Shown one piece after another: positions 50,648-64,000 of a stretch of DNA of 64,000 bases (within the stretch, counting starts at the first letter, position 1; each line of letters begins with the position of its first letter). The translations under genes and the position numbers were made by a program. This DNA is from an uncultured Chlorobiales bacterium. GTDB lineage: Bacteria > Bacteroidota > Chlorobiia > Chlorobiales > Chlorobiaceae. The stretch covers positions 62,001 to 126,000 of the forward strand of contig CAIYTH010000002.1 in assembly GCA_903929135.1 (NCBI GenBank), written 5' to 3'. The notes under the pieces were generated by a model. The model was not told the origin of the DNA. It searched no databases and worked only from the letters and a program-made list of their open reading frames with translations.

Positions 50648-50720
50648 CTGAAACACATCGCTCCCGCTGACCTCAGCGGAAATGCCATTTCAAGCGCCAT
50701 TCAAGCATCTAACCCACGAG

Positions 50721-52001
50721 ATGAACAAACACAGTTTCGATACGATCGAGTCAGCCATTGAGGACATCAGGAACGGCAAGCTGGTTATCGTCGTGGACGA
50801 CGAGGACCGCGAGGACGAGGGCGATTTTATCGCCGCCGCCGAGCACGCAACTTCCGAAATGGTGAACTTCATCACCAAGGAGGCCAGGGGACTGCTCTGC
50901 GTAGCCGTCACCATGCAGCGCGCAAGGGAACTGCAGCTCGAACCTATGGTCCAGCGCAACACCTCCCAGCACGAGACCAATTTCACCGTATCCATCGACG
51001 CCATCGCCGAAGGGGTTACGACCGGCATTTCTGCCTATGACCGCTACATGACGCTCAAGATGATCGCGGACCCGTCATGCACGGCCGACGACTTCTCACG
51101 TCCCGGGCACATCTTCCCGCTCAGGTCCATGGACGGAGGCGTACTCAGGAGGGTCGGCCACACCGAGGCCGCCGTCGACCTTGCCAGGCTCGCCGGATGC
51201 CAGCCAGCAGGACTTCTCTGCGAGATCCTGCACGACGACGGCAGCATGGCGCGGTTGCCCGAACTGTTCAAGCTGAAGGAAAAGCTCGGCCTCAAGCTGA
51301 TAACCATCAAGGACCTGGTGGCGTACCGCATGCAGCAGAGCAAGCTGGTGCACCGTGCAGTTGAGTCGAAGCTGCCCACGGCTTACGGCGAGTTCCGTCT
51401 GATCGCCTACGAATCGTTCATCGACCAGCAGAACCACATGGCGTTCGTCAAGGGCGACGTCGACGACGGCGAGCCGGTGCTGGTCAGGGTGCATTCGCAG
51501 TGCGCCACCGGCGACACCTTCGGATCGCTGCGCTGCGACTGCGGCAACCAGCTCGCCACGGCCCTCGGCATGATCGAAAAGGAGGGGCGCGGCGTGCTCG
51601 TCTACCTGATGCAGGAAGGACGCGGCATCGGCCTCATCAACAAGCTCAAGGCATACAACCTCCAGGACGAAGGGTTCGACACCGTCGAAGCCAACGAAAA
51701 GCTCGGCTTCAAGGCCGACCTCCGGGACTACGGCATCGGCGCCCAGATCCTGCAGGACCTCGGAGTCAGGAAGATGCGGCTCCTTACCAACAACCCAAAG
51801 AAGGTGGTCGGGCTCGAGGGCTACGGCCTCGAAATCGTCGAGCGCATGCCTCTGGAAATCGCGCCGAACGAGGTGAACCGCCAGTACCTGCAGACCAAGC
51901 GCGACAAGCTCGGCCACATCATCGAATCGGTCACCGGCAACGATCGCCTCCTGTTCGAGCAGCTTGCCGAAGAGCAGTTGAAACAGTCTAAAAAACCGTA
52001 A
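50721..52001 (+). CDS. ribBA: bifunctional 3,4-dihydroxy-2-butanone 4-phosphate synthase / GTP cyclohydrolase II
   Basis: The two entry reactions of riboflavin synthesis on one chain of 426 residues. The start is ATG 50721 ([19 protein letters not shown]). The RibB half has [16 protein letters not shown] and [15 protein letters not shown]. The RibA half has the zinc cysteines in [33 protein letters not shown] and [16 protein letters not shown]. Both halves look catalytically complete. glyA follows 23 bases later, in the same direction, with GGGAGAAGGA before its ATG, so the two are likely co-transcribed. Confidence 0.97.
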
Positions 52002-52024: not shown

Positions 52025-53350
52025 ATGATGAAGCACGATATTCTGAAAATGCAGGACCGCGAGGTCTTCGACTCGATTGCCGGCGAAGTCAGGCGCCAGA
52101 CCGAGACCCTCGAGCTGATCGCTTCGGAAAACTTCACCAGCAGGGCCGTCATGGAAGCCTGCGGCTCGGTGATGACCAACAAGTACGCCGAGGGCTATCC
52201 CGGCAAGCGGTATTACGGCGGCTGCGAGTACGTCGACGTGGCCGAGAACCTCGCCCGCGACCGCGCAAAAAAGCTTTTCGGCTGCGAGTATGTCAACGTC
52301 CAGCCGCATTCGGGCTCCAGCGCCAATATGGCCGTGCTCTTCGCCGTGCTCAAGCCGGGCGACACCATCATGGGCCTCGACCTCTCACACGGAGGCCATC
52401 TCACCCACGGCAGCTCGGTCAACTTCTCCGGACAGATGTTCGACGCCCACTCCTACGGTGTTGACCGCGAAACGGGCATCATCGACATGAACAAGGTCGA
52501 GGAGCTGGCCCTGCAGGTCCGTCCGAAACTGATCATCGCCGGCGCCAGCGCATACTCCCAGGGCTTCGACCTGAAGGCCTTCAGGCAGATCGCCGACAAG
52601 GTCGGCGCGCTCCTCATGGCCGACGTCGCACATCCGGCGGGCCTCATGGCCGCAGGCGTCCTGCCGAACCCCATGGAGCACTGCCACTTCGTGACCACCA
52701 CCACGCACAAGACCCTTCGCGGTCCCCGCGGCGGCATGATCATGATGGGCAAGGACTTCGAGAACCCGATGGGCATCACGCTCAAGACCAAGACCGGATC
52801 ACGCGTGAAGATGATGTCCGAGGTGCTCGACGCCGAGGTCATGCCCGGCATCCAGGGCGGTCCGCTCATGCACATCATCGCCGGCAAGGCGGTCGCCTTC
52901 GGCGAAGCGTTGCAGCCCTCGTTCAAGGTCTACGCCCAGCAGGTCAAGGACAACGCCGCAGCAATGGCAGCCAAATTCATCGAACTGGACTACCACATCG
53001 TCAGCGGCGGCACGAAGAACCACCTCATGCTGCTCGACCTCCGAAACAAGGATGTCAACGGCAAGATCGCCGAGAACCTGCTGCACGATGCAGGCATCAC
53101 GGTGAACAAGAACATGGTGCCGTTCGACGACAAGTCGCCCTTCGTGACCAGCGGTATCCGCGTCGGTACCCCGGCCATGACCACCAGGGGCATGAAGGTC
53201 GCCGAGAGCGAGCAGGTCGCCGTCTTCATCGACCGCGTCATCTCCGCCGCCAACGATGCCAACGTCGCCGATGTCTGCAGGCAGGTCAGGGCAGAGGTCC
53301 GCGAGCTCTGCCTGAGCTTCCCGCTGGACGGTTACGGCCCGCTCATCTGA
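52025..53350 (+). CDS. glyA: serine hydroxymethyltransferase
   Basis: A PLP enzyme that interconverts serine and glycine with tetrahydrofolate, 441 residues from the ATG at 52025. Key parts are [39 protein letters not shown], and the cofactor lysine in [16 protein letters not shown] near residue 229. The C-terminus [17 protein letters not shown] is family-like. It is followed by a strong terminator shared with the giant-protein operon arriving from the right. A decayed copy of this gene's last third is found at 62.0-62.4 kb. Confidence 0.98.
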
Positions 53351-53372
53351 GGCCATCCGAAATACGTACAGC

Positions 53373-53408
53373 AAAAAGGCCGGTCCCCGAAAGGTGACCG
53401 GCCTTTTT
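53373..53408. terminator. bidirectional terminator between glyA and the giant-protein operon
   Basis: A perfect 13-base stem (AAAAAGGCCGGTC at 53373-53385 with GACCGGCCTTTTT at 53396-53408) and a 10-base loop. It has a T tail in both directions. Confidence 0.92.
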
Positions 53409-53419
53409 CGTTCACACGT

Positions 53420-56400
53420 TCAGGAGTCGGACGGGGGATCGAGCTCCACGACGTCGGAATAGACCATTCGCGGCCATACGGCGGTTTTGCCCACTCCGAC
53501 CACCGCCCTGAGCGAGGTGGCCGAGTTGTTGTCGAGGCCCCGGCCGGGATCGGCGTTCAGGAACTCATACTCCTCGACGACCAGGCGGTAGCGCTGGGCG
53601 TTTCTCACCTGCGGCAGCAGGAGGTAGCCGCTCCAGACCGTGACCGTTTTGGAGACCTGCATCTCGGCAAGCGGTACCCAGGGCTCATCGACGGGCACCC
53701 AGACAGTCGGATCGGTACCCGGCATGCTGACCTCGATACGCACGATGACGCGGTTGGGGCAGACGACGTTGAAGCAGGCCCGCGGCGCCAGGCCGGAGAG
53801 CGAGACCTTCACCCCGAAGGGGTTGGCTGGATCGGGGCTTGTCCACAGGAGCCTGTCGGGCGTTGTCTGGACGCAATCGGCCGTGAAGACGCGGGAGAGC
53901 TCCATGCCTGCGACGGAACACGGCTGGAACCGGGCGAGGGCCAGGCGGACGAACGGGAAGTAGGAGGGGCCCGCGTCGATGGCGATGTCGCTGTACCAGA
54001 GCTTCCTTTCAGCGTCGTAAGCCACCGGATGGCCCGCAGCAGCGACACCCCAGCGCGGTTCACCGGACGGGATGGGCGGATTTTCGTCGAGGAGAAGGTC
54101 GGTGGAACGCGCCACGGCAGCCGGGAAATGGTGTAACGTCGGTGTCTGGTGCACCAGTCCCGAGAGCCATATCGGATCGATGCCCCATCGGGTGACATAA
54201 TTCTGGAGCTTTTCAGGGGGCACCGGCGCGGCAGGGGAAACGAGCGCCTTGCCCTCGCCGGCGTTGTATCCATCGGCCGTGACGATCTGCGGGCCGTGTG
54301 CCACCAGCACGCCGAGCAGTTCCCCTTCGCCTGACGAGAACCACTCTCCGCTCATGTAGACCCTGAGGCATCCGCCTCCCCTGCGGCGGGAAAGGCCATC
54401 CACCCGACGATCCTCCTCCCAGTCGAACGTGGGGATGATATACTCGACCTTCGGGGCGAGCGGGCGCGCCGAGCTGGGCACGTCGAGCACGAAGTCGGCC
54501 GGGCGTTCGAGCGCCTGCGGCGTGGTGAAGCTCATCGCGGGGCTCGAATCGGTCTCGAAGTATTCGCGGAACCTGGATGTGGCCGTTGCCAGGTAGGAGA
54601 TTCGCCGGTGCCTGGTGTCGCCGAGTTCGTGCCGCTCCGACAGGGTGGCGTATTCTGTGTCAAGGTCGGTGACCTCGAACCGGCACGCATCCGCGGAACG
54701 TTGCACGAGGGTAAACCCTTCGTCGGAATCCGGAGCCGGCAACACGTCGTTCCAAGATGCCCTGAAGTCAACCTTGTCGGTGCTCCTGCCGTGGACGTGG
54801 AGGATTCCCGCCAGGGTAAAGAAGGTTTCGGCGGCATTCCGCAGCGGCGAAGGCCCATGCACATACGGGGCGAAAATCGGATGCTGGACCGCATGGATGA
54901 AGGTCAGTTCGCGATAGGGCGTCATCATCCAGTGGCGGCCTTCGACGGCTACCTTCGCGAGCTTGTCAAGCCACGCCGCAGGAGCCGATTCCCGGATCCA
55001 TTGCCAGATGCCCAGCTGGTCGAGCATCCCGGCGCCCGGGAGGCATGAGCTCATAAGCACGGTTATCCGACCGGCCTTCGGCAACCTGACGAGCAGCTTC
55101 CGTTCGGTTTCGAGCCACTCGTACCCGGCATCGCCCTCCTGCAGCTCGACACTGAAGGTGCCCGAATGGGGCCAGGGCCCGGCGCCATCGAATCCGGCGC
55201 GGAAGACGAGCGGGACGTCGGTTCCCGGCAGCCCTACAAACGCAGCGCCACTGGCTGCGGGATCAGGCAGGTAGGGCGCTTCGTCCATCGTTTCGCCGGC
55301 CTTGAGGGTGTCGGGGAGCTGCGCCTTGTCGCGCTTCGCCAGTTCCGTATACCATGACGAAGCTCCGTCCGGTGCAGGGCCGTCGATCATGCCGTGCAGT
55401 TCGGCGAGCTGGACGGTCGCCCGCGGCGCGATGACGACCCGGCTGGTGGTCTCGTCCGTCGGAGTCGTTTCGTTTTCTGCCCAGCTCCGGATGACCAGCC
55501 GGTCGACCGACTCTCCCGGTCGAAGCTCCGTACTGCTCGCCAGGGCCGGCGAAGCAACCGGTTCGAATCGCAGGTAAGGGGCTGGCGAGGTGGCGCCGCT
55601 GTCGTCAATGTCTTCTTTGATGTCGCGGCTGTTGCCGGCGATGTCGACCAGGCGGGCCCGTATCCGGTAATTGCTGCCGTACCGCAGCTTGGGCAGGGAA
55701 CCCCCGGCCACCTTGAAACTGGTGGTCAGGCCGAGGGCATTGGCCACATCGGTCGGTTCGTAGCCGACCGCATCCACCGCACCTGTCGTCGGCTTTTCGA
55801 TGGTCTTCCCGGGGTGAGGCAGCACCATGCTCCAGCCGTCCCAGTGGAAGAGCGCTTCGTGCAGGTAGAGGTCGCTGCCGGCAGCAGGGTCGGTGCTCGA
55901 TACGCCGGCGACGGTGACCGTTCCCTCTTCGGGGTGATCTTTTTCGAAGATGGTGACCGAGGGGTCCGGAGCATAGGTGTAAGTGCCGGTCCGCATGCAG
56001 AGCGAGAACCACTGTTTTTTCGTCTCGTCGTACACGTCGACCCGGTATCCCCGGACGAGGTCCTCGGCGCTGAACCTGATTCCCGGGCTGAATTTGACCT
56101 CGCCACGGAGGTCGAGCGTCGAGAGCTGGCTCTCGTAGCCGCTTCCGTTCTTCAGCTTCTGCACGAACCCGGAGGCGCGGTCGTCCATCAGCACCGACAT
56201 CCCACCGGAGCGAAGCGCGGGCAGTCCGGCGGTCTTCGGCGTGCCGAGCACCGGCGGCTTGTGGATGCCGAGGTCGCCGAGGGTCTGGGTGAAGTTGATC
56301 GCCTTGATGGCCGAGCCGTCGATATCGACCTGGGCCACCGAAAAATCCTTTCCGGACATGTCGAGATGTCCCTTGACGACCAGGCCGCCCGAGGAGTGTG

Positions 56401-57361
56401 CCGAGAAAACCCCTCCCGCAAGGTCGATGTCGTATCCCGTGCCCAGCGCCACTTTAGAATCCGGACCGCCGGAGAGCGGGTTTTCCGGCCACACCCAGAC
56501 GACTTTGTCGGCGACGCCGGCAAGTCCGGGAGGAACCGGTACTTCGAGATCGAAAATCAGCCCGAGCAACCGCTGCAAATCGGGGTAGTCGCCGAGCATG
56601 GCGATGATCTGGTGGAAATCGAGGTCCGGCTTCGCCGGTCGGTTCAGGTAAAACGCTTCGAGCTCGTCGGGGTCCTTGGTCCTGATCTTGGGGGCATGGA
56701 AATACTCGGCCTGCCAGAAGTCCAGGCGGGTCGCTTCCGAATCGCTGATCGATGCAGGATAGTTGCGGGGCACGACCCCGCCTTTGATGAGGGAGTGGAT
56801 CGTTTTTTCACAGCTTGCCCTGGCGCCGAAGTGGCTCAGGTCGAGCGCAGAGAAGTCGGCGATCTTCGCGATGCCCTCCTGGGTGGCAACCATGCTTCCC
56901 CGGCCGTAGAGATTGCCTGGCACCGGGAGTTCCGTCGGCGAGGCGATGGCGACCGCACTATACTGGCGCTTGATGAAATCGAGGATCCTCGAGGCCGGGA
57001 ATGAGCGGACAACCGGGTTGGAGAGATCCTTTACGGTTCGATTCCTCACGACGACCGTCTCCGCTCCCTGGAAAAACTTCTTCCAGAGGTCGGGACGCAG
57101 CAGCTCCTTGGGTGGTTTCAGGTGCGTCACGGTCGGCGTGGCCGTGACGCCCGGAGGATAATTCCCGAAAAGCACGGAGAACGACCAGGGCTTGCCCGCC
57201 CAGTCGACGAAATCGCTGAAGCTGCCGATCGGGGCGCTTCCGCTGTCGGGTGTCAGTCGCGGGGTCGCCCGGACAGAGAGCCTGAGCACCGGGGTGGTAC
57301 CGTCGACGGAAGATTTGCCGATGCCGTTGGGAAGGGCGGTCCAGGTTATGATCTGTTGCAT
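53420..57361 (-). CDS. giant protein of unknown function, downstream gene of a two-gene operon
   Basis: 1,313 residues from the ATG at 57361 (MQQIITWTALPNGIGKSSVD), preceded by GGAG nine bases before. There is no signal peptide or membrane helix, so it is presumably made in the cytoplasm. I recognise no family. It is rich in predicted short strands, Pro, Gly and Trp. Landmarks are GNYPPGVTATPTVTHLKPP early, SNYRIRARLVDIAGNSRDIKED mid-chain (an Ig- or fibronectin-like strand run), LTFIHAVQHPIFAPYV (residues ~830), and repeated Trp/Tyr strands such as VVEYEF-like segments at the end. It ends 12 bases from the terminator shared with glyA. It begins 13 bases after the upstream giant gene ends. 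Confidence 0.85.
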   Translation of the reverse strand: MQQIITWTALPNGIGKSSVDGTTPVLRLSVRATPRLTPDSGSAPIGSFSDFVDWAGKPWSFSVLFGNYPPGVTATPTVTHLKPPKELLRPDLWKKFFQGAETVVVRNRTVKDLSNPVVRSFPASRILDFIKRQYSAVAIASPTELPVPGNLYGRGSMVATQEGIAKIADFSALDLSHFGARASCEKTIHSLIKGGVVPRNYPASISDSEATRLDFWQAEYFHAPKIRTKDPDELEAFYLNRPAKPDLDFHQIIAMLGDYPDLQRLLGLIFDLEVPVPPGLAGVADKVVWVWPENPLSGGPDSKVALGTGYDIDLAGGVFSAHSSGGLVVKGHLDMSGKDFSVAQVDIDGSAIKAINFTQTLGDLGIHKPPVLGTPKTAGLPALRSGGMSVLMDDRASGFVQKLKNGSGYESQLSTLDLRGEVKFSPGIRFSAEDLVRGYRVDVYDETKKQWFSLCMRTGTYTYAPDPSVTIFEKDHPEEGTVTVAGVSSTDPAAGSDLYLHEALFHWDGWSMVLPHPGKTIEKPTTGAVDAVGYEPTDVANALGLTTSFKVAGGSLPKLRYGSNYRIRARLVDIAGNSRDIKEDIDDSGATSPAPYLRFEPVASPALASSTELRPGESVDRLVIRSWAENETTPTDETTSRVVIAPRATVQLAELHGMIDGPAPDGASSWYTELAKRDKAQLPDTLKAGETMDEAPYLPDPAASGAAFVGLPGTDVPLVFRAGFDGAGPWPHSGTFSVELQEGDAGYEWLETERKLLVRLPKAGRITVLMSSCLPGAGMLDQLGIWQWIRESAPAAWLDKLAKVAVEGRHWMMTPYRELTFIHAVQHPIFAPYVHGPSPLRNAAETFFTLAGILHVHGRSTDKVDFRASWNDVLPAPDSDEGFTLVQRSADACRFEVTDLDTEYATLSERHELGDTRHRRISYLATATSRFREYFETDSSPAMSFTTPQALERPADFVLDVPSSARPLAPKVEYIIPTFDWEEDRRVDGLSRRRGGGCLRVYMSGEWFSSGEGELLGVLVAHGPQIVTADGYNAGEGKALVSPAAPVPPEKLQNYVTRWGIDPIWLSGLVHQTPTLHHFPAAVARSTDLLLDENPPIPSGEPRWGVAAAGHPVAYDAERKLWYSDIAIDAGPSYFPFVRLALARFQPCSVAGMELSRVFTADCVQTTPDRLLWTSPDPANPFGVKVSLSGLAPRACFNVVCPNRVIVRIEVSMPGTDPTVWVPVDEPWVPLAEMQVSKTVTVWSGYLLLPQVRNAQRYRLVVEEYEFLNADPGRGLDNNSATSLRAVVGVGKTAVWPRMVYSDVVELDPPSDS

Positions 57362-57374
57362 GGTATGGTTCTCC

Positions 57375-60300
57375 TTATGAGGCAAAGGCTGCTTGGTAGG
57401 TATCCCACTCTTCGAGATTGAAGGCGTCGCCGAGCGTCGGGTCTGACGAGGCGCCCGCGAACTCCCTCCGGACGGTGAGGGTCACGTCGGCGCTGAAGAA
57501 GAGGATTTCGATCTCGACGGTCATGCTCGCCTCGCCCCATGCCTTGTCGTGCTTGAAGTCGTAGGTGAGGCCGAGGTAGAACTCCACGCTCACCGTGATC
57601 AGGCCGAGCACGCAGAGCGATCCGCCGGCACGCACATAACCGGTAAGGTCCGATGCATTGGCGGACATCTTGATGTAGATGCCTGCCATAACGTGGACTC
57701 CGCCGCTTGCCACACCGATGTCGAGAGAGAAATTGCCGCCGAACTCGATCGAGAGTTCGAGCATCTCCACGCCGTCGAGGCCGACGCCGATGGCGAAGAA
57801 ACCGCCGCCGGTGAATAAGGAGACGGAGACCATGAACGGGTTCTGGCGCTCGGAAAGCGCGAAGCGCGCCCTGAAAGGATCGCCGATGAAGGGCAGCGTG
57901 GCCGAAGCGTTCAGCGCGAGGTTCTGCAGGGGCGAAGACGCCTACCTGGATCGACGGGAGCTGGATCCCGTAACCGATCGACAGCCCCTCGGCGGAAATG
58001 TCGATGCTCGGCGGATCGACGAAGCGGTCGAGTCCGAGGTAATCCTCGATGACCGACACGAACGCGAGCGCCCCGACGAATTTTATCTTCCCGATATCGA
58101 CGTTCACCTCGGGCTTGCGGCCCGCTTCCATGCTCATGGAAAACACATTGAAGGGAATCTCGATGACCTTTGCAAGGGTGATGGTGAAATCGACCAGACT
58201 GGCGGTCACGGTTGCGTTGGCGCCCGAAGCGGCGCCGACCGTCACTTCGCAGGTGATTTCTATCCCCCTGCTCGCACCCGATGCGAACGATCCCGCATCA
58301 GCCTTGAGCTGGTCGCTCTTCCAGGTGAAACGTCTTTTCAACTCCCCCTTGTCGGTGACGTCGCTGACCCACTGGGGAATCTTGATGTCGCCGCCGGAAG
58401 CGAACCCGGTAATCTCCTCGAGGATCGAGGCGAGGCTGATTCCGCCGAGTATCTTCGGGGCGTCGCCGCTGAAGAACGCCAGCGGGTTGAAGGTGCCCTT
58501 TCCGAACTCGGCCAGGTCCGTATCGATGCTGCCGTTGTTGCCGCTTCCCACGATGCCGTGGGCGCGAGAGATGCCTCCGGCGAGCATGCTCGGCGTGATC
58601 ATGCCGCCGACCTTGTCGGTCCTGTTGCCTCCGCCGTAGTCGATCGTGACGCCGTCGGTGAACCTGGCGTAGACTTCGCCCTGGCTGTTCGTGCCGCCGA
58701 ACCCGTTGTCGAGGTACCCATTGAAATAGCTGATGCTGCTGGCCTTGTCGGTACCGGCGAACTGCCTCATGGCTGGCGCCACCACGTCCGCAGTGGTCAT
58801 CCTCGGATAAAACGGACGAGCCCATGACTCGCCGCTCTTCTTCAGCCTGAAGAAGCCCACGAAACCGATGGAGCTGGCTTCGAGCGCCTCATCCTTTCCT
58901 CCCTTCGTATCGGCGAAAAAGATACTCTGGCCACCGAACTGGTACTTCCGCCTGCCATCGGGTTTGCCCGGGTCGGCCTGGTCGATGATGACACGATCGA
59001 CGTTCCCGCTGGTGAATGTGATATCGTTGCGCACGAATGCCAGCGGCGCGGAAAACTCGACTACCTTGCCCGCCCTGTCGGTCGCGTTGAGGGAGAACAG
59101 GTAATCCTTATGGTTGACGGTCGGCCAGAATGCCGCCTCGATTTCGGCAGGTGGAATCGGTATCGCTCCGGGATAGGTCTGGTCCAGGAGGGGGGTGACT
59201 TTGGTCAGCACCCGGACGCTCCGGAACGGGATCTCCCGGCCCTGGTGCTCGAAAACGCCGTGTCCGGCCTGGTCAGAAATGTAATCACGCTCGTACTCCT
59301 TGACGACGATGAACGCTCGTTTGCGCAGCCATGCGCCCATGCGCCCGGGCGGGTTCTGGCCGAATTTCCTTTCGGTGATCTCGATGAGCACCGCCTTGTG
59401 CCCGAACGGGTAGAGGTATCCCCGCTTGACCACCTGGACGAACTGGTCGCGCCCCATGGTCGAGCGGTGCAGCCACCGCTCCAGCGTCACCTTCATCTCG
59501 TCGAGCTGCGTCCAGTTGCCGTCGAGGTTCATCCAGGCCCCGAGCGAGGTGAGCATCAGGCGGTTGGCGTCGACCGATTTGAGGGCGCTGTTGGAGACGA
59601 TGAACGCCCTGTCATCCGGTTTCAGCGACTCCGTCCTGGTCAAGTCCGTCTGGACCGGAGGCACGAACGGATCGGGTGAAACCCCCGCAGAGTTGTCGAT
59701 CGACCAGATGGCCCGGACCTGAGGCACATCGGCTGCCGGAGGCGGGCCGGCCAGCCTGGCATGCCAGAGGACTGCCCGTGGTCCCGAAGCCATCACTGTC
59801 GAGACGGCCGTATCCCAGTACCCGTACTGGTCCGGCGAGATCAGCAGGCGGTAAGGCGCCTCGATTGCGGTCGTATCGAGGTCCGGCGCGAAATTGAAGA
59901 CGGCCCCGGTATGCTGGAACGACGGGATGAGCCAGCCATCGGCAAGCCGCGCTTTCTTCAATCCGGCACGGTATGGCTTCACGACCGGCTTCACGGGTTT
60001 GACGGGCATGGGGGTTATGGCGCGGCCGTCGAGGCGCGGCTTCAGAAGGGTGCCCTTCCAGTCGAGCAGCACATCGGCCGCGTAGGGGATGCTCTCCGCT
60101 CCGTCGGGCAGGTCGAAGGCCAGGCGGGAGAGCCCTGCGCTGCGGTAGTTGATGACGCCTGGCGGCACCGAATCCGAGGTTGTCGTCAGGTCTTCGATGA
60201 ACGCCTGCTCCCCGATGCTCTGCGGCGGGAAATAGACCACGATGCGCGGCACGTCGTCCGTCATTCTTGCGAGTTTGCCGGGCCCGGCGCCCCTGAACTC

Positions 60301-61749
60301 GGGTCGCAGTCCCAGGAACTGGAGCCCCAGCACCATCAGGTCACGGGGCCGGACGACCTGCGTGAGGATCCAGTCAGGCAGCACGACATGTGCTTCAGGA
60401 GCATCGCCCGAGACATCGACGACTCCCTCCACGGCCTTGAGCGTGCGACCGACCGGCGCGATGGTGAGGAACATGGTGCTTGCGGCGAGAGGCGGCATGG
60501 GGTCGACCACGAAGTCGCCGAGGCGAGGGGCCGTGGCCAGGAGGGTGAACGGAAGTCCTTGCTGCAGGGGGGTGTTTCCCGAAGGGATCGGACCGAGATA
60601 GAGCAACCCTGGGTTCCCGTCGGCAGGGGGGATGTCGAGCAGCATGAAGCCGGGCTTGCGCGGCACAGGCCCGAGGGCGAGGCTGCATCCGGGCGCGTGC
60701 GCCGTGAGCGGCACAGCGGTCCTCAATGCGACGAGGGTTGCGCCCAGCCGGGTGCCGTCGCCGCGATAGACGGCCAGGTAGACCGGTTTCTGCAGGGGAA
60801 CCGAAAAAGGCAGCATGTAGTCGTTCAGGAGATCCGCTCCCGGCTGGAAAAAGAGTCCCGTCGTCGTGGAACCGACAGCGGTCACTGCGCGCCTGATGCT
60901 GCCGTCGAGCTGCTCGTCGGCTTCGATTGAAAGCCTGAGGAACGCCGGCGCCTGGTGGAAAAATCGCCATCCGGCTGTCTTTTCGGGCCAGAGCGGCACA
61001 TCGAAAGCCTCCTTTTCCGGGATGAAGAGCATCGAGCGGCGGTTGGCCGGATTGGGCAGGAGGCTCGGTATGCCTGGACCGAGCAGTGCCAATGCAAGCA
61101 CCTTCGAGCTGATGGTATCACCCTGCGTGGTGAGGTCGACGAAAGCCTGGCCGCCTCCGAAACTGAAGATCCATGATGGAAAGAATACTGCCCATGTCGC
61201 GCCGGCAAGCCGGAGGTGCATCCCCTCGGTCACGCGGCAGATTTCGTCGTCGAAAAAGACCGGAGCCACCGCCATGGCCTTGCCGTCGAGCCAGTCCGCG
61301 AGATCGACCGCAGCCGCGAATCCGCAGCAGTCGAACTGCAGGTAGAGCTTCGCCTTTCCGCCTGCAATCGTGATCCGCGCGGTGAGGACGGCCGGGATGT
61401 CGAACCCCGGGAAGCGCGCCTCCTTCAGGGTGATCGTCACGTCGTCACCATTCGGGCTGACCTTCACCTCCAGCTTTGAGTTCCCTGCGAATCGGCCGGC
61501 GTTGACACCCCACTGCCCTCCGGCGGCGCTCTTCATGGTTACCCAGCCCGGAGCGTACTCGACGGTAACGCCGCCGATGACAAGCGTCCTGACGAGCGTG
61601 TGCTTGCCTATGGTCCCGATCCTGCCGGCCAGGAACCGCCAGTCAGGTTTGGCCGTGCCGGCTTCCGTGACGAGGGCGCTTCCCGACTGGTCGACCTTGA
61701 GGAAGTCGTTGGACTTCAGAACCGAAAGATTGAAAGGTAAAGGATTCAT
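57375..61749 (-). CDS. giant protein of unknown function, upstream gene, frameshifted near its 3' end
   Basis: About 1,457 residues if one frameshift is corrected. Reading from 61749 (MNPLPFNLSVLKSNDFLKVD) the protein is coherent to IQVGVFA at about 57930. It then turns into Arg-rich noise that runs to 57346. In the other frame the sequence continues sensibly as LQNLALNASATLPFIGDPF and on to TAA at 57375. The switch is one extra G in the run 57929-57932. There is no signal peptide. Near the C-terminus are amphipathic strands such as GFFAIGVGLDGVEMLELSI and SVEFYLGLTYDFKHDKAWG, which alternate as in large beta-sheet proteins. No family is recognised. It could be a pseudogene, a base-call error or recoding. 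Confidence 0.8.
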
Positions 61750-61999
61750 GGCGGTATCCTGATTGGGCTCTGGCCTGACGCCTGCTTGCAGTCGCGCACC
61801 TGCCGTTTCCGGCAGGGAGGCTGGTGGCTGGCATGGCTGAATTCCGTTCGTATTCCGTGGTTAGAGAAACCGTGATGTACAGGGAAACCAGATCAAAGAG
61901 AACGGTGATGAGTCAGAAAGCAAGTGTGCTTTCAAAGGTTCCGGAGAAGCGAAGGGATCGCCGGAGAGATCACGAAGGAGAGAAAGTTATGACATCCTA

Positions 62000-62028
62000 T
62001 AGATAGCAGAAATACTCTACACTTTCAA
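62000..62028 (-). promoter_or_regulatory. candidate promoter of the giant-protein operon
   Basis: On the minus strand TTGAAA (62023-62028), a 17-base spacer, then TATCTA (62000-62005). This is a fair sigma-70 match. It would leave a leader of about 245 bases before the start at 61749, and I see no gene or RNA motif in that leader. Confidence 0.35.
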
Positions 62029-62029
62029 G

Positions 62030-62407
62030 GTGAGTAAGGAATAATTCCAGTCGGGGAACATGAATTGTCAATAGCGGTACACTGGTGGATCGACACGTTT
62101 CCCCGGTGATCCGATAAAAGGTAAATCCCCTCATTGAAGACAGCACAACAGGTTTTCGATGAAGCGGGTTCCGCGTTGGTACCCTTGCCATTCCTAGGGG
62201 AATGAAGGTCGTTGTGAGCAAGAAGATCGTCGTCATCATCGTCCGCGTCATCTCTGCAACCAACAATGCAAATGTCTGCAAGCATGGCAAGACACATATC
62301 TGCGAGCTGTGCCTCGGCTTTCCGCTCGACGGCTATGCGCTCGTCTGAGCCACTCGACATACAAAGCAAAAGACCAGCACTCCCAAGGTGACCGGCCTTT
62401 TGCTTTT
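62030..62407 (+). pseudogene. decayed copy of the 3' end of glyA with its terminator
   Basis: From ATG 62202 to TGA 62346 the translation reads MKVVVSKKIVVIIVRVIS, then ATNNANVC, and ends ICELCLGFPLDGYALV. The true glyA end reads [29 protein letters not shown] and [16 protein letters not shown]. The match continues upstream to about 62030 on the nucleotide level with small indels and stops. It continues downstream into a degraded copy of the glyA terminator (AGCAAAAGACC ... GGTGACCGGCCTTTTGC). The copy has the same orientation as glyA, so the giant-protein operon lies between two direct glyA 3' ends. Confidence 0.9.
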
Positions 62408-62485
62408 TCACCTATTCGTTTTTGCCGCCGGCGCCCATAACTCCCAAGCAACACACATCACACCCTCATTGCTTACCTCATTTGC

Positions 62486-62548
62486 TTCATCCGTCTCATC
62501 CACGTTGTCCATCTCGTCCATTGAGTCTACTTCGTCTATCAAGTCCAT
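62486..62548. repeat. 9-base repeat, seven degenerate units
   Basis: On the minus strand the units read ATGGACTTG, ATAGACGAA, GTAGACTCA, ATGGACGAG, ATGGACAAC, GTGGATGAG, ACGGATGAA. This is the same family as at 21.5, 41.4 and 43.2 kb, but more decayed. Confidence 0.75.
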
Positions 62549-62581
62549 AAAAACATCCGCTCTCTCGTTCTTCCCGACCCC

Positions 62582-62734
62582 GCTGACACGTTGCTGGAGC
62601 AGGATGGTAACGAGTACCTTGATGGCGGCACAGTCGATGATAGGCTGTTCGGGTATGTCGGCAACGAGTCGTTGACAGGGAGAGATTTGATTATCGTGGC
62701 AAGTCAGACGGTCAGGTCGCGGGTAGCGGCATAA
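62582..62734 (+). pseudogene. remnant of an RTX (Ca-binding nonapeptide) repeat protein
   Basis: A 50-codon open stretch ending in TAA at 62732. Residues 9-35 read GNEYLDGGTVDDRLFGY followed by VGNESLTGRD. This keeps the nine-residue register and most Gly, Asn and Asp positions of RTX repeats (consensus GGxGxDxLx). There is no start codon and no upstream RTX sequence, so only the end of a former gene is left. RTX proteins are usually exported by type I secretion. Confidence 0.6.
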
Positions 62735-62820
62735 GGTGTATATGTGAAAGTATATGCAAAATACTGCTCAAGGCAGCCGAAATATACTTGTGGCGTGTAC
62801 TCATGTATGATAATAGCACA

Positions 62821-62839
62821 AAAAATGATAATTATTATT
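62821..62839. promoter_or_regulatory. Fur-box-like sequence in an AT-rich gap
   Basis: The 19-mer at 62821-62839 agrees with the classical Fur consensus GATAATGATAATCATTATC at 15 of 19 positions. A further GATAAT lies just upstream at 62809-62814. The nearest gene start is 270 bases away and the surroundings are very AT-rich, so chance is a serious alternative. The rest of the gap from 62735 to 63108 shows no gene, repeat or RNA I can identify. Confidence 0.2.
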
Positions 62840-63108
62840 GTTGGAGTTGATATTTATCATTAACTATTGGTTGTGTGATTTCGGAGTTCGATAGAATCAG
62901 CATCGACCCGAAACACTTACCCCCACATTCAATTCACGGCGTACCTTATAGAGCAGTAACAAACCCGATGGCTTTTGCAGTTAAAGCGTAAGAATGCAGT
63001 GCCGTTCCACTCTGTTACCCGATTTACGTTGCCGTAACGTCCTGTTGGTTATTACCTGTCGTCAGTTACCGAGCATTCCCCACTGAACCCCCATTCAGAT
63101 TCTCGGAC

Positions 63109-63423
63109 ATGTCGAACGCATCGCATATTCAGGTTATTTCGCCTGAGACTCTTCATTCAACCAAGTCCCTCACCGGACTCCCGAATTTCTTGTGCCCTGT
63201 CTGCAGGCACACATTGATGGAGGATGAAGCCCAGCCTTTGCTCTTCTCTTTACTTTGCCATATACCATGGATGCCTCATTGTATAGTGGATACGCTGCCG
63301 CTACTTGATCAATTAGAGATTATCTATAATGAATTGCCAATGACACGGTCTTTATATCGAAAAAAGCATTCAATCACCGGATGTTTTGCTGTGTCTATTA
63401 ATGTCAGCACTGAAAATCCATAA
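63109..63423 (+). CDS. small hypothetical protein with a CxxC pair
   Basis: 104 residues. NFLCPVCRHTLMEDEA places one CxxC near residue 29, and two more Cys occur around residues 50-59. There is no signal peptide and no recognised domain. There is no good ribosome binding site before the ATG at 63109. Codon use is more AT-rich than in the core genes, like the two genes that follow, so it may belong to the same imported segment. It could also be an unused open frame. Confidence 0.4.
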   Translation: MSNASHIQVISPETLHSTKSLTGLPNFLCPVCRHTLMEDEAQPLLFSLLCHIPWMPHCIVDTLPLLDQLEIIYNELPMTRSLYRKKHSITGCFAVSINVSTENP

Positions 63424-63444
63424 TCGCAATTCTGGAGAAGTAAT

Positions 63445-63794
63445 ATGATGTTAAATATGAGATTATCTCATATACGAGGTCTATTCAACAGATTGTTTTT
63501 TTTGCGTTGATTTTATACATGCATGTTATTGTATCGCAAGGTATTGGTAAGTGTTCTGAAAAAAACAAAGAATTTATAAATGATGATAGGGTTATCGCGT
63601 TGGTTGTTGAGGGTGAGCAATTTAAACATGATGCCGCTAAAATGCCGGAAGATACTAGATTCGTATTTCTTCCAGGATCGGTAACTATCCTGAAAAAAGA
63701 TGGTCGTTATAGCGTAAGGGTACGCGTAAATATCGATGAGGGTGGTTATTTCGTTTTTTATAAAGAATATTTTATTCAGAATATAGAAAAATAA
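63445..63794 (+). pseudogene. small secreted-type protein, signal peptide out of frame at a T8 run (candidate immunity protein)
   Basis: GGAG at 63434-63437 stands seven bases before ATG 63445 (a second ATG is at 63448). Reading from there gives MMLNMRLSHIRGLFNRLFF and then a stop at 63508-63510. In the frame one base over, ALILYMHVIVSQGIGKCSE continues to a 90-residue domain ending at 63794. If the T8 run (63496-63503) had nine T, the two would join into a textbook signal peptide plus mature domain. Without it, the longer frame only has a TTG at 63507 and no binding site. The mature part (VIALVVEGEQF, FVFLPGSVTILKKDGRYSVRV) is unrecognised. A hydrolase gene follows 13 bases later. Confidence 0.6.
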
Positions 63795-63807
63795 ACGGAG
63801 GTGGTTT

Positions 63808-64000
63808 ATGAGTAATAAGATAGATTTTATTTTGAGTATATATGATGCAGCAAAAAAAGTATCTGCTCAAACCGGAATGTCGGTTGATTTAATTCTTGCA
63901 CAGGCTGCGCAAGAAACGGGTTGGGGAGAAAAAGTGTTGCCCGGCACAAACAATTTATTCAATATAAATGCAGACGCTTCTTGGGCCGGACAGGTTAAGT
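63808..64000 (+). CDS. peptidoglycan hydrolase, GH73/FlgJ-like glucosaminidase (5' part)
   Basis: Cut by the window end after 64 codons. GGAGGTG at 63797-63803 precedes the ATG. The segment VDLILAQAAQETGWGEKVLPGTNNLFNI is the GH73 (mannosyl-glycoprotein endo-beta-N-acetylglucosaminidase) signature, with the probable catalytic Glu in QETGWG and the N-N-L-F-N-I block after it. There is no signal peptide at the N-terminus (MSNKIDFILSIYDAAKKVSA), which is unusual for a housekeeping autolysin and common for injected effectors or phage lysins. It follows the small secreted-type gene by 13 bases. Confidence 0.85.
   Translation, partial: MSNKIDFILSIYDAAKKVSAQTGMSVDLILAQAAQETGWGEKVLPGTNNLFNINADASWAGQVK

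Follow-up and report, generated by a model that had tools for sequence, protein, structure and literature searches.

Behind the housekeeping gene glyA of an uncultured member of the Chlorobiales, a two-gene operon for giant proteins lies between the intact gene and a decayed second copy of its 3' end. The stretch analyzed, referred to here as the window, comprises 64,000 nucleotides of a draft genome of 2.14 Mb (G000). The same arrangement, with gene-end homology on one side of a cargo and a truncated tail in the same orientation on the other, is present at glyA in this genome and in G012, at rpoD in G012 and its sister G007, and at a formiminotransferase-cyclodeaminase gene in G009. We consider it probable, at roughly 0.7, that the window records a homology-anchored insertion of incoming DNA that carried a gene 3' end together with its cargo, the relic being the original 3' end of glyA. 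The features concerned, in window coordinates, are as follows.

50682-52001, plus strand: ribBA-like gene, the conserved left neighbor of glyA (open reading frame; alignment of relatives)
52025-53350, plus strand: glyA, intact, 441 aa, its 3' end being the intact repeat copy (open reading frame; in 84 of 86 family genomes)
53150-53407, plus strand: intact repeat copy, comprising the last 200 bp of glyA, stop codon and terminator (alignment, HMM, hairpin of -25.8 kcal/mol)
53420-57385, minus strand: downstream giant gene, 1321 aa, of no known family, with its stop codon ~10 bp past the glyA terminator (open reading frame)
57375-61749, minus strand: upstream giant gene, ~1470 aa in relatives, frameshifted near 57929-57931 (open reading frame, comparison with relatives)
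61750-62162, no strand: spacer of 413 bp separating the relic from the operon's first gene, presumably the operon promoter region, with no glyA homology (alignment, HMM)
62163-62409, plus strand: relic, a decayed glyA 3' end with stop codon and ruined terminator (BLASTN, HMM, decay count, hairpin energy)
62505-62551, no strand: dispersed repeat of GTCCA/TGGAC type (GTGGAC/GTCCA; sequence comparison)
62577-62687, plus strand: RTX repeat fragment, the start of an RTX/secretion block reaching contig ~144.5 kb (62582-62667 has 80% identity to contig 133,699-133,784)
63808-64000, plus strand: first part of a glucosaminidase protein belonging to the RTX block, running off the window (Pfam PF01832)

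The preliminary description had placed the operon between one intact and one decayed glyA 3' end, and both alignment and profile search bear this out. BLASTN of 61801-63000 against the window aligned 62163-62401 with 53150-53407 at 72.9% identity over 258 columns (E 5e-35), and the local alignment score of the two copies, 174, lies far outside those of 300 dinucleotide shuffles (mean 22, maximum 28). An HMM built from the glyA 3' ends and terminators of 20 genomes, searched against 119 kb, matched the intact copy with 515 bits and 62163-62409 with 136 bits (E 5e-41), the remaining matches being weak ones and an antisense match to the terminator itself. The homology takes in the final 200 bp of glyA with its stop codon and, as had been described, the terminator; the relic also has the orientation of glyA, again as described. 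The extent had to be revised: the repeat had been given as about 340 bases from 62030, and since 62020-62162 holds no glyA homology detectable by local alignment or HMM, it begins at 62163 and spans about 250 bp. Discounting RTX repeats, a pair of exbD paralogues and short repeats, the glyA pair is the sole such direct repeat in 139 kb of the contig.

The second copy is decayed in both its coding and its noncoding parts. Several small deletions break its reading frame, and over 197 columns conserved in near relatives it carries 32 changes, 24 of which replace G/C with A/T. Its terminator hairpin reaches -7.8 kcal/mol (z -0.3), compared with -25.8 kcal/mol (z -5.4) for that of the intact copy.

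The left flank of the intact glyA is ancestral, with an unbroken alignment from 50.0 to 53.4 kb to the five closest relatives, at ~85% DNA identity, up to the glyA terminator, and the relic adjoins right-hand content common to relatives. The order here is glyA, giant operon, relic, RTX/type I secretion block, a small 23S-intervening-sequence-like gene and dnaG, which is reached only after 29 kb. G008, G001, G020 and G005 have the small 23S-intervening-sequence-like gene immediately after the glyA terminator, and in three of the four dnaG comes next. An empty site had been anticipated in which glyA would run directly into the sequence at 62.4 kb. Such a site does exist in several relatives, and it joins glyA to sequence ~20 kb beyond the relic (here the small gene lies at contig 144.6 kb) because the RTX/secretion block, on the right of the relic, varies as well. 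Four other relatives have a different gene between glyA and dnaG, two an outer-membrane FadL-type gene, and the interval, with at least four different contents, houses variable cassettes between two conserved genes. The RTX/secretion block is also found beside dnaG in G012, as are its secretion genes in G007. In G011 an RTX fragment lies ~100 bp behind the glyA terminator, and this is the only genome in which glyA is followed directly by RTX-like sequence. No relative among the 86 family genomes has an intact second glyA, in keeping with the earlier reading of the second copy as a remnant.

The cargo is unusual in its content and distribution. The downstream giant gene occurs in 6 of the 86 family genomes and beside glyA in this genome alone, and no known donor has glyA adjoining the giant operon. 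Searches of Pfam, NCBIfam and PDB returned no match for the giant proteins. Homologues of the downstream protein, at ~30% identity, are carried on Streptomyces, Diaphorobacter and Rhizobium plasmids, and phages and viral contigs yielded no match to it. In the two plasmid cases inspected (Streptomyces, Diaphorobacter) a second large gene annotated "hypothetical protein" stands beside the homologue, and the pair is present in a Geobacter MAG as well; the two giant genes are a conserved pair. AlphaFold gave no usable model for the C-terminal part of the downstream protein (pLDDT 28.5). The apparent frameshift at 57929-57931 in the upstream gene, seen against G009, marks either a pseudogene or an assembly error.

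The arrangement recurs in relatives. Outside the window genome and G012, no convincing second glyA 3' end was found in the 86 family genomes. The weak glyA-end matches of G014 and G026 were set aside because they resemble other coding genes, and a weak 17-bit match to the glyA 3' end lies in reverse orientation at 1511-1430 of L119 (G018 contig C257). In G012, glyA is followed by a fadL-like gene and then by a second, decayed glyA end, whose coding part by itself reaches a score of 36, compared with at most 22.5 for shuffles. This relic carries letters peculiar to G012's own glyA and is therefore best read as independent of the case in the window.

A second anchor gene came to light in a control scan of 400 kb of G012, where rpoD is followed by a small gene for an apparently secreted product, then by a radical-SAM/SPASM gene, and finally by an rpoD-end relic with 90.7% identity over 108 bp. 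The small gene (L131:1751-3381, with its neighbor) encodes a lysine-rich, probably secreted peptide, and together with the adjacent radical-SAM/SPASM enzyme, found in 6 of the 86 family genomes, it possibly forms a modified-peptide pair. The rpoD relic of G012 is present in G007 too, where a second one is stacked with it and an autotransporter cargo stands between rpoD and the older cargo. The inner relic matches the present rpoD 3' flank of G012 over 181 bp, and the intact rpoD of G007 has a new terminator, unrelated to the old one that the inner relic retains. This supports the conclusion that two diverged alleles met in G007.

The third anchor is the formiminotransferase-cyclodeaminase gene of G009, behind which lie an AlbA/ParA-type pair and then a relic of the last ~310 bp of the gene. 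Of the coding differences between relic and intact gene, 18 of 19 fall at third codon positions (p 9e-8), and the changed codons comprise 16 synonymous and 2 nonsynonymous ones. With such a bias both copies must have diverged while functional, and two diverged alleles therefore met here also. On another G009 contig (C100; L178, reverse complement 2431-2488) a short rpoD coding fragment of ~45 bp sits directly behind an ntrC-like gene and before a small peptide/radical-SAM cargo, and it may be another case.

These two genomes bear on a simple alternative account of the window, a tandem duplication of the glyA 3' end and the operon with loss of one operon copy and decay. That account needs no second transfer and is compatible with the window taken by itself. 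There is, however, no trace of a second operon copy in the 600 bp to the right of the relic, and duplication leaves unexplained the G009 tails, which diverged as functional alleles, and the different terminators in G007; we regard it as very improbable.

As a control, a scan of 1.6 Mb recorded where, and on which strand, isolated copies of gene ends lie. Repeat arrays and paralogues were found upstream as well as downstream, and the five tails left after inspection were all downstream and on the same strand, a count that is not a rate, as paralogues were removed by inspection and the scanned set includes loci picked for rpoD or glyA. No relic case appeared in 400 kb of a genome taken to be C. 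tepidum, nor in a further 250 kb sampled from the window's genome. Pairs that proved ordinary were repeats within UvrA, RTX repeats, outer-membrane paralogues in tandem and, in C. tepidum, a tRNA-like pair; a trpC pair in G012, mostly in noncoding DNA, was left uncounted.

The relics differ in where they begin, their 5' boundaries lying 18, 47, about 75, about 200 and about 310 nt before the stop, and the inner relic of G007 and the relic of G009 have nothing clear in common with the intact gene behind the stop. Both observations bear on the possibility that a site-specific integrative element with a tyrosine integrase entered at the glyA 3' end, restored the gene and later lost its integrase. 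The model for such an element is e14 at icd in E. coli, which is integrase-dependent and duplicates an attachment site with a fixed core. As there, an intact core gene is restored and a displaced 3' end lies at the far side, so that the geometry of intact gene, cargo and displaced gene end is the same, and a patchily distributed module such as the giant operon would suit an element of this kind. In contrast to e14, the relics lack a constant core, their homology to the intact gene beginning between 18 and ~310 nt before the stop, and the sequence behind the stop in G007 and G009 departs from that of the intact gene. Because the 5' limits of the tails vary, the cargoes behind the three anchor genes and the anchors themselves differ, and Pfam assigned none of the cargo proteins tested (the searched open reading frames of the island and of the other cargoes) to an integrase or transposase family, we consider a site-specific element quite unlikely, though an integrase may have been lost. 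The preliminary description had offered an element inserting at a gene 3' end and restoring it, or a duplication with decay; what survives of this is the restoring insertion, which fits better than duplication alone. That tails end at terminators also gave rise to the idea of a retro-copied host mRNA, an idea rejected on account of the G007 and G009 tails, which differ from the intact gene behind the stop.

Under homology-anchored insertion, our preferred explanation, DNA from another strain carrying a glyA 3' end, its terminator and the giant operon would recombine with the resident glyA through homology at the coding end. The far end would be joined illegitimately into the resident 3' end, or a circularized fragment would integrate by a single crossover. 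Either route would yield an intact glyA, with a resident 5' part and an incoming 3' part, then the cargo, and then a 5'-truncated resident tail on the old downstream DNA, which, being functionless, would decay. The survivors would be only those events that restore the gene, and this would explain why the scars lie behind conserved genes. Uptake of free DNA is a plausible source, as Chlorobaculum tepidum is naturally transformable (PMC3842273).

Laboratory work in E. coli offers both a precedent and a difficulty. Most clones expected there as products of homology-facilitated illegitimate recombination (HFIR) were gene-end duplications, of 109-950 bp in those sequenced, and were attributed to a single crossover of circularized DNA (PMC3240628). 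The likeness to our cases is that one homologous end suffices and that a gene end of 109-950 bp is duplicated; the differences are that these were laboratory constructs and that the usual outcome of HFIR itself is loss of resident DNA, not its duplication (PMC3240628), which counts against our preferred explanation. So do the absence of a known donor with glyA beside the giant operon and the lack of relic cases in the 400 kb taken to be C. tepidum and the further 250 kb of this genome.

Which of the two copies in the window is resident is a separate question. The preliminary description took the divergence to mean that the second copy came from another strain or is old. In a tree of ~260 columns the relic is placed best beside G017 and not beside its own glyA, yet placement as sister to its own glyA is not rejected (p-AU 0.40). 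Separate trees of the 5' and 3' parts of glyA gave no sign of a foreign 3' end, and a search within glyA and rpoD for a crossover, visible as a jump in mismatches, found none. The codon-position bias of the relic is not significant (p 0.15), which decay may explain. Linkage and the analogous cases suggest that the relic would be the resident tail and that the incoming DNA would comprise the 3' end of the intact gene and the operon.

A converse order of events has the RTX/secretion block bring in the relic: a donor segment reaching from the donor's own glyA 3' end to dnaG would have recombined on the dnaG side and been joined behind an operon already present, making the relic the foreign copy. 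The physical linkage of the relic to RTX sequence, the best tree, and the RTX-like sequence behind glyA in G011 all speak for this. Against it, the trees do not reject a position of the relic beside its own glyA, relic and RTX block in G012 lie ~9 kb apart with other genes between them, and the stacked rpoD relics of G007 put the newer cargo next to the intact gene. We think this order of events unlikely.

The process works like homology-anchored displacement, which is known for toxin loci; it differs in that the anchors are intact housekeeping genes and that the tails are dead. A similar homology-anchored logic has been proposed for stacked immunity genes in V. cholerae (PMC5361080), where homology to the resident locus anchors an incoming module, its far end is proposed to join illegitimately, and displaced 3' remnants are pushed downstream, with successive insertions stacked and the newest nearest the anchor. 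There, however, the resident effector gene is replaced and the immunity gene kept, whereas here core metabolic or sigma-factor genes serve as anchors and stay intact, with unrelated cargo and dead tails. Rhs C-terminal displacement, as cited in PMC5361080, likewise leaves strings of orphaned 3' ends downstream of an intact gene; in that account Rhs is a polymorphic toxin gene with variable 3' ends rather than a conserved housekeeping gene. The minimal mobile elements of Neisseria (Saunders and Snyder, via PMC3082526) resemble the glyA-dnaG interval in being whole-gene cassettes between conserved genes of a transformable genus. As related in that source, they enter by homologous recombination, and gene-end relics fall outside their definition.

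For bacteria in which no mobile elements are visible, the gain of whole new genes is commonly put down to "homologous or illegitimate recombination" and left at that. The displaced tails of housekeeping genes record individual insertion events directly. Resident and incoming allele, order of insertion and frequency of the process can be read from them in genomes, and they suggest that survivorship, by requiring restoration of the anchor gene, shapes the places in which new genes come to lie. A single relic is a modest observation; its recurrence over genes and species makes the process testable. A bolder and still tentative possibility is that many accessory genes of green sulfur bacteria are acquired in this way, inserted again and again in an ordered manner directly behind conserved housekeeping genes, with a dead tail left by each event, a stacking akin to that of integrons that dispenses with an integrase. 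If this is true, the order and the source of gene gains can be read genome-wide from fossil tails.

The RTX block to the right of the relic looks like a stepwise displacement of its own. Its contents (62577-64000 and L050) are fragments and repeated copies of one RTX-associated region, the glucosaminidase and a type I secretion set, and it also encodes an RTX protein of 2756 aa that weakly matches a lipase. A dispersed repeat similar to that at 62505-62551 is found at contig 144,503-144,550, the right end of the island and RTX block, and others lie behind the glyA terminators of several relatives. Beyond the 3' end of dnaG in L109 (G010 contig C28) there is a CRISPR-like repeat array whose reading frames contain VSIHAPTRGAT.
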